Shown here in pieces: positions 26,265-27,668 of a stretch of DNA of 50,527 nucleotides; positions within the stretch are counted from its first letter, which is position 1; every line of letters begins with the position of its first letter. The notes below the pieces were generated by a model that worked only from the letters and a program-made list of their open reading frames with translations, was not told the origin of the DNA and did no database searches. This DNA comes from Planctomycetaceae bacterium (GTDB lineage Bacteria; Planctomycetota; Planctomycetia; Planctomycetales; Planctomycetaceae). The translations under genes and the position numbers were made by a program. The DNA is taken from NCBI GenBank assembly GCA_015485495.1, contig WFTL01000141.1, positions 1 to 50,527 on the forward strand. The letters run 5' to 3'.

Positions 26265-27293
26265 TCACGCGTTCACAGCTTCCACCGCGGCTCCCTTCAC
26301 GGTCGTGATGATTTCCGCTGCCACCTTGTAGGGATCGGCGTTGGAGGCCGGGCGTCGGTCTTCCAGCCAGCCCTTCCATCCGGCTTCCACCGTGGCAACG
26401 GGAATCCGGATGGACGCTCCGCGATCCGACACGCCGTAACTGAACTTATCGATGGCCTGCGTTTCATGCAGTCCGGTCAGACGCTTGTCATTGTCATGAC
26501 CGTAGACATCGATGTGCTCCTGAATCCGCGGCTCGAACGCCTGGCAGATCGCCTCGTAAACCTCCTGGTTGCCGGCGGTTCGCAGCAGAGAATTGGAAAA
26601 GTTGGCATGCATTCCGGATCCGTTCCAGTCGGTCGGGCCGAGCGGTTTCGGGTGCCAGTTGATAGCGATGCCGTATTTTTCCGCGTTCCGTTCCGCCAGA
26701 TAGCGGGCCACCCAGACCTGGTCGCCTGCGTTGGCTGCCCCCTTGGCGAAAATCTGAAATTCCCACTGACCGGCCGCCACTTCAGCATTGATGCCTTCAA
26801 TGTTGATGCCGGCCTCCAGACACTGATCCAGATGTTCTTCAACAATCTGACGGCCGTACGCGTTCTTCGCACCAACCGAGCAGTAGTAGGGGCCCTGAGG
26901 AGCCGGGTAACCTCCCGGAGGAAAACCAAGCGGCAGATTGTGTTCCGGATCCCACAGGAAGTATTCCTGTTCGAAGCCGAACCAGAAATCTTCATCATCG
27001 TCGTCGATGGTGGCGCGGCCGTTGGACTCGTGAACGGATCCGTCGGCATTGAGCACCTCTGTCATCACCAGCCAGGCATTCGTACGGGCCGGATCCGGGA
27101 ACAGAGCGACCGGTTTGAGCAGACAGTCTGAAGAACTGCCTTCCGCCTGCTCCGTCGAGCTGCCGTCGAAAGCCCACATGGGGCAGTCTTCCAGAGTGCC
27201 GCCAAAATCGCTGACGATTTTGGTCTTGGACCGCAGGCTCTGAGTAGGCTTGTAGCCGTCGAGCCAGATGTATTCCAGTTTCGTCTTCGCCAT
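26265..27293 (-). CDS. glnII: Glutamine synthetase, type II (eukaryote-like GSII)
   Basis: Condenses glutamate and ammonia to glutamine using ATP. At 342 aa it is far shorter than GSI (~470) and matches GSII of plants and rhizobia. Seen: the N-terminal beta-grasp with EYIWLDGYKPTQSLRSKTK, the DGSSTEQA loop, the catalytic FGFEQEYFLWD, APQGPYYCSVGA, EVAAGQWEFQI, DWNGSGMHANFS, and SDRGASIRIP with a conserved arginine. No adenylylation-site loop of the GSI type is expected in this class. The ATG at 27293 has CAGGAG about 13 nt upstream and GAAGAAC closer; the frame extends to 27353 with non-family residues. A sigma-54-type promoter lies 260 bp upstream, suggesting nitrogen control. Confidence 0.95.
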   Translation of the reverse strand: MAKTKLEYIWLDGYKPTQSLRSKTKIVSDFGGTLEDCPMWAFDGSSTEQAEGSSSDCLLKPVALFPDPARTNAWLVMTEVLNADGSVHESNGRATIDDDDEDFWFGFEQEYFLWDPEHNLPLGFPPGGYPAPQGPYYCSVGAKNAYGRQIVEEHLDQCLEAGINIEGINAEVAAGQWEFQIFAKGAANAGDQVWVARYLAERNAEKYGIAINWHPKPLGPTDWNGSGMHANFSNSLLRTAGNQEVYEAICQAFEPRIQEHIDVYGHDNDKRLTGLHETQAIDKFSYGVSDRGASIRIPVATVEAGWKGWLEDRRPASNADPYKVAAEIITTVKGAAVEAVNA

Positions 27294-27552
27294 GTTCTTC
27301 AAGCTCCTGTACAAAACTCGACTGCCGCAGGCCGTGCGATCAACGCACGCCATGCTCGTCCTGTCTCGGCTCAGATCCTTCCCTGTTCAGATTCGCCAGC
27401 GGCATCGCACACCGATGCCAGAAAGAACGTTCCGGCGAATCCGCGTGAGTCAGCGACCGGTCGTCGGCACTGCCTGCACATTGAGCACTTCTGCCGGATC
27501 CCGAGGCAGAATGTCGGCCTGCCAGCGGCAGTCCGGACGCTTCATCCTACTA

Positions 27553-27568
27553 AGCAGTCACCGTGCCA
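27553..27568 (-). promoter_or_regulatory. Near-consensus sigma-54 (RpoN) promoter for glutamine synthetase
   Basis: Minus-strand TTGGCACGGTGACTGCT contains TGGCACG, four bases, then CTGCT. The -24 GG and -12 GC are exactly 10 bases apart, as sigma-54 needs, and only one base departs from the consensus YTGGCACG-N4-TTGCW. The predicted start is near 27542, leaving an untranslated leader of about 250 nt before the glutamine synthetase ATG. The surrounding gap 27294-27748 holds no other gene. Confidence 0.65.
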
Positions 27569-27628: not shown

Positions 27629-27668
27629 GTTCGGGCCGGACAGCTCCCCCGAGCTGTCCGGCCCGAAC
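27629..27668. promoter_or_regulatory. 18-bp perfect inverted repeat in a divergent promoter region
   Basis: GTTCGGGCCGGACAGCTC (27629-27646), CCCC, then its exact complement to 27668. It lies between two divergent genes, where no transcript should need to end. Its centre is about 106 bp upstream of the predicted sigma-54 start, a distance typical of enhancer sites. It could equally be a leader hairpin of the rightward lipoprotein gene. The repeat is seen; the role is inferred. Confidence 0.5.

Follow-up and report, generated by a model that had tools for sequence, protein, structure and literature searches.

The type II glutamine synthetase (GSII) gene in a 50,527-nucleotide stretch of planctomycete DNA (hereafter, the window) is probably subject to two successive controls, first a sigma-54 promoter and then a structured leader RNA; this was the best explanation of the sequence features described below. 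The gene lies on the minus strand (26265-27293, start ATG at 27293) of a 4.67-Mb genome that is 98% complete, and encodes a protein of 342 amino acids. The GlnII model NF041605 was by far the best match to this protein (E value 3.5e-119), with a score of 397.8 bits, under the equivalog cut-off of 500, and Pfam confirmed both glutamine synthetase domains (Gln-synt_N and Gln-synt_C). By these models, the gene is a GSII homologue falling outside the curated GlnII equivalog range. A predicted Shine-Dalgarno sequence, AGGAG, is located at 27304-27308 (minus strand); on inspection, it sits within a small hairpin in many relatives.

The first-pass annotation had claimed a sigma-54 promoter ahead of GSII, and the site was indeed present. 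We located TGGCACGGTGACTGCT on the minus strand at 27568-27553, 260 bp upstream of the GSII start, with the GG and GC elements correctly spaced and a single consensus mismatch. The minus-strand sequence TTGGCACGGTGACTGCT occupies 27569-27553; within its 16-mer (TGGCACG-GTGA-CTGCT, 27568-27553), a C replaces the first T of TTGC in the consensus TGGCACGNNNNTTGCW. No other match with one or zero mismatches occurred in the 50.5-kb window. Across the 4.67-Mb genome, the same pattern yielded 42 matches and its reversed control 56, so that the site, judged by genome-wide count alone, is not above chance and needed support beyond the count. The match rate of about 4.5e-6 per base per strand corresponds to about 0.1% for a 300-bp upstream region.

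That support came from conservation of the promoter across GSII genes, which the first-pass annotation had proposed as a check. We found GSII in 68 out of 170 genomes of the family, and assembled 69 upstream regions, 68 of them from this family and the last from a different family in the class. Of the 69 regions, 54, belonging to 19 out of 23 genera, had a -24/-12 element with a score of 11 bits or more, 178-541 bp before the start codon, whereas none of the 69 regions reached 11 bits on the opposite strand, which was scored identically; the weight matrix follows published consensus frequencies only roughly, so these scores are approximate. On this basis we accepted the GSII site as real, and it is very probably a genuine promoter. 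The genome-wide count would fit the rival idea that the match arose by chance and that another promoter drives GSII. However, the one-sided conservation, the fixed spacing between the promoter element and the first leader hairpin (see below) and the failure to find a sigma-70-like promoter in the GSII upstream region all speak against it, and we consider it very improbable. The position of the GC element predicts a transcription start at 27542-27543 (minus strand). With a start near 27543 and the GSII ATG at 27293-27291, the mRNA would carry a 5′ leader of about 250 nt (27294-27543). Still farther upstream, some 60-100 bp from the promoter, the window contains a 17-bp inverted repeat without mismatches (TTCGGGCCGGACAGCTC / GAGCTGTCCGGCCCGAA, 4-nt loop, 27630-27667) that has no T run and, in the alignment, is missing from both congeners.

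The annotation had further proposed that nitrogen-responsive sigma-54 control extends to this GSII gene. The sigma-54 part of this proposal found support. The genome encodes rpoN, as the annotation had expected, and about 15 strong sigma-54 activator ATPases. The same genome's amtB-glnK operon has a one-mismatch sigma-54 site directly ahead of it (locus L238, 3823-3838, on contig C145 of genome G000), and the site at amtB is conserved in most relatives. Together with the GSII site, rpoN and the activators, this points to a putative sigma-54 nitrogen regulon comprising GSII and amtB-glnK, and sigma-54 control of the window GSII gene is well supported at the level of sequence comparison. The nitrogen-responsive part, with an NtrC-like activator, is more tentative. 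Among the seven of the approximately 15 activators that we scanned, the best NtrC-model score was 442 bits against a cut-off of 558.6, and none of 54 planctomycete GSII promoters contained NtrC boxes. Nor did these promoters share upstream dyads or 8-mers above the level in shuffled sequences. The annotation had drawn its RpoN precedent from proteobacteria, whereas the host here is a planctomycete. Outside planctomycetes, several gamma-proteobacterial GSII genes carry sigma-54 sites upstream, and we found none ahead of the Bacteroidota GSII genes examined. Inspection also revealed NtrC-like GCAC...GTGC boxes upstream of some of the gamma-proteobacterial sites (loci L112 and L109).

Aligning the GSII leaders made conserved helices apparent. 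The first of these, P1, started 43-45 nt past the promoter element in all 23 tabulated loci, despite leader lengths of 242-317 nt. RNAalifold, run on an automatic alignment, found nothing beyond P1, P2 and a portion of P3b; we therefore set the consensus structure by hand and then tested it with controls. In a MAFFT alignment of 19 leaders, 79.5% of cells were paired under the hand-set structure, compared with 69.0% in shuffled and 34-45% in slid controls. Changes on both sides were seen at 21 out of 32 pairs, and none of 500 shuffles reached the covariation score. The result was upheld in 25 model-aligned sequences (81.8% paired), an alignment that is biased towards the model; slid controls across both alignments gave 33-45%. 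In a simulation modelled on R-scape, which took phylogeny into account, 6 out of 33 structure pairs were significant, one in P4 and five in P3b, the latter count including an extra in-loop pair added after we had seen the first run. The same threshold was passed by 19 out of 15,018 non-structure pairs, which is the chance rate.

The P4 loop can form a pseudoknot with a segment just before the Shine-Dalgarno sequence. The paired segments differ by species, for example GUCGCGG/CCGCGAU, GUUACGG/CCGUAAC, GCUGUGG/CCACAGU and GCGACAAG/CUUGUCGU, and only 1 out of 20,000 permutations matched the complementarity of the true partners. P2 pairs hardly varied among relatives. The mean folding z-score over 54 leaders was -1.9, as against -0.4 upstream of the promoter. 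Taking these results together, the GSII leader is very probably a structured RNA, as judged from covariation and folding statistics. We rejected three other candidates for the leader. No reading frame was common to the leaders, which eliminated a leader peptide. P1 and P2 form a tandem of equal geometry, as ANTAR-type twin hairpins would, but on inspection their loops were not the required hexaloops. A search with Rfam covariance models, including those of glutamine riboswitches, returned no matching family and only sub-threshold miRNA-type or sRNA matches, and a known riboswitch was rejected accordingly.

In the window, the conserved core of the RNA matched our covariance model R1 at 27353-27512 (minus strand, as for all elements below) with 108.7 bits and an E value of 1.5e-29, a score to be read in the light of the window sequence being one of the 19 used to build the model. 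Alignment pairing counts support hairpin P1 (27489-27511), in which UUCUGCC pairs with GGCAGAA around a loop containing GGGA, and helix P3a (27391-27440), in which AUUCGCCGG at 27440-27432 pairs with CUGGCGAAU at 27399-27391. Between them, hairpin P2 (UGCUC...AGGCA, 27471-27487) consists mostly of invariant pairs, so its covariation support is weak. Hairpin P3b (GGCAUC-GGUGUGC-GAUGCC, 27401-27419) has a conserved RYGUN-type loop; its pairs were 96-97% paired in the alignments, and five out of six had changed on both sides. The J3/4 segment (27376-27390), which contains GGA motifs, leads to hairpin P4 (CUG-AGCCGAGA-CAG, 27361-27374), whose support comes from relatives. The predicted pseudoknot, likewise supported from relatives, would join GCCG in the P4 loop (27370-27367) to CGGC at 27327-27324. 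Hairpin P5 (27333-27351), which is variable among relatives, lies between P4 and the pseudoknot partner. Both P4 and the pseudoknot are short in the window leader, at only 3-4 bp. When this leader was folded alone, the minimum-energy fold lacked P1 and P2 (-109.3 kcal/mol, versus -98.6 kcal/mol when they were forced); we thus judged the structure by covariation instead.

The R1 fold was present in 5 of the 23 genera. In the 170 family genomes, all matches above 50 bits were GSII leaders on the same strand, with one exception: in genome G007, a prepilin-like gene (N-terminal methylation) is preceded by a degenerate duplicate of promoter and leader (locus L233, 1998-2300). Whole-genome matches below 30 bits were regarded as noise. 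We obtained no further strong matches when sampling 397 genomes of the class and 392 of the phylum, some of which also belong to the family set. The remaining genera carry long GSII leaders of different architecture. Their motifs include GGGAGCGCTCACC...GCTCCC and TTCTGACGTCC...GACGTCAGG, and such leader types were seen at loci L007, L184-L186, L189 and L190; L204, L206 and L199; and L005, L163, L175, L181 and L183. In five leaders of one such genus, g31, 22 out of 107 predicted pairs showed compensatory types, the structure having been predicted from the same alignment.

Comparison of coding sequences with their leaders revealed a discordance. The window GSII protein (L002) shares 87-88% identity with its counterpart in another genus and only 72-73% with those of two congeners (L010 and L011), whose own GSII proteins cluster with a third genus. 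By contrast, the window promoter and leader are closest to those of the congeners (68-69%, versus at most 57% to others), and the upstream neighbour genes are syntenic with the congeners. A second genus, with its own leader type, showed the same pattern: compared against L005, L175, L181 and L183, the L163 leader is 67-70% identical within the genus and about 40% identical to the lineage that its GSII resembles. On the simplest reading of these identities, the GSII coding sequence was apparently replaced twice, once in each genus, beneath a promoter and leader that were already in place; unequal rates are a lesser possibility. Regulatory leaders may therefore remain where they are when the enzyme coding sequence beneath them is exchanged.

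These observations bear on what the leader does. If the sigma-54 promoter were the only control, the leader structure would serve mRNA stability and contain no regulatory switch. Promoter conservation is much wider than that of the leader fold, which suits this idea, but the compensatory changes and the pseudoknot next to the Shine-Dalgarno sequence exceed what stability needs, and the leader was retained through the apparent coding-sequence exchange. We therefore consider a promoter-only arrangement unlikely. We found no minus-strand terminator in the GSII upstream region, and the fold adjoins the Shine-Dalgarno sequence; from these two observations we infer that the RNA gates ribosome access. 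On balance, we lean towards the view that the leader RNA controls GSII translation.

One candidate for the acting factor is CsrA, dimers of which would bind the GGA motifs of the P1 loop, of J3/4 and of the Shine-Dalgarno sequence and block GSII translation until released. The genome contains six CsrA-family genes (L271-L276). All 23 sequences had GGA in J3/4 (2,000 shuffled draws gave a mean of 8.2 and at most 15), and 17 out of 25 had it in the P1 loop (5.4 expected), in statistics that ignore kinship among the sequences. However, GGA was not enriched over the whole leader (125, versus 130.5 expected), 8 out of 25 P1 loops lacked it, and the J3/4 motif can often base-pair with a UCC close by and would then be masked from CsrA. 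The simple model also gives P2, P3b and the pseudoknot no role. CsrA is a candidate for the acting factor, though less likely than not. Alternatively, the RNA could be a metabolite-binding riboswitch whose ligand is glutamine or some other metabolite reflecting nitrogen status and which masks or frees the Shine-Dalgarno sequence. Its complex fold, the adjoining pseudoknot and its association with glnII alone would fit, and cyanobacterial glutamine synthetase is under glutamine riboswitches (work cited in PMC8632094). Against this, invariant unpaired bases are few, the RNA is restricted to five genera and the known glutamine riboswitch families did not match; we think a riboswitch unlikely.

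We propose that the two successive controls operate as follows. Under nitrogen limitation, some AAA+ activator would trigger sigma-54 RNA polymerase to initiate glnII transcription at the -24/-12 element (27568-27553), glnII having its promoter type in common with amtB-glnK in a small nitrogen regulon. The leader of about 250 nt would then fold into P1, P2, P3a/b, P4, P5 and a pseudoknot adjoining the Shine-Dalgarno hairpin, and, with CsrA, some other protein or a metabolite as effector, would gate the access of ribosomes to GSII. More tentatively, the leader may represent a regulatory RNA class not previously described, perhaps one that senses a metabolite and is unrelated to known glutamine riboswitches. 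It would control planctomycete GSII translation behind the sigma-54 promoter and remain there while horizontal transfer swaps the enzyme gene.

How planctomycetes regulate nitrogen assimilation has been little explored. A 2025 promoter survey predicted sigma-54 promoters in Planctomycetia and mentioned glutamine-synthetase-like genes in that class (PMC12316311). Our finding links sigma-54 with both amtB-glnK and GSII across a family and places, between promoter and enzyme, an RNA leader that is absent from Rfam. Sigma-54 control of GSII is known from rhizobia; the leader RNA is new, and we found no report of it in the open-access papers searched. Sigma-54/NtrC control of rhizobial GSII is established (Martin 1988 and Patriarca 1992, as cited in PMC4842269 and PMC10746234). 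The glnII genes of Bradyrhizobium japonicum, Rhizobium leguminosarum and Sinorhizobium meliloti are likewise GSII nitrogen-assimilation genes with a sigma-54 promoter. The present gene differs in its planctomycete host, in that no NtrC box was found and in its long structured leader, a feature looked for in planctomycete genes.

Among RNAs, the glutamine riboswitches (glnA RNA, RF01739, and Downstream-peptide, RF01704) are likewise structured leaders of glutamine synthetase or nitrogen genes, whereas the RNA described here has no Rfam match, has a much larger fold and occurs in planctomycetes rather than cyanobacteria. The gltD motif (SRC-18-1, PMC8632094) is another candidate cis-regulatory RNA; it precedes a nitrogen-assimilation gene, and its hairpin occludes the ribosome-binding site. 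The gene is a different one, and the likeness is one of description. Finally, CsrA-repressed leaders similarly carry GGA in a loop and at the Shine-Dalgarno sequence, whereas in this putative CsrA target the GGA motifs are spread over about 200 nt of an elaborate fold.
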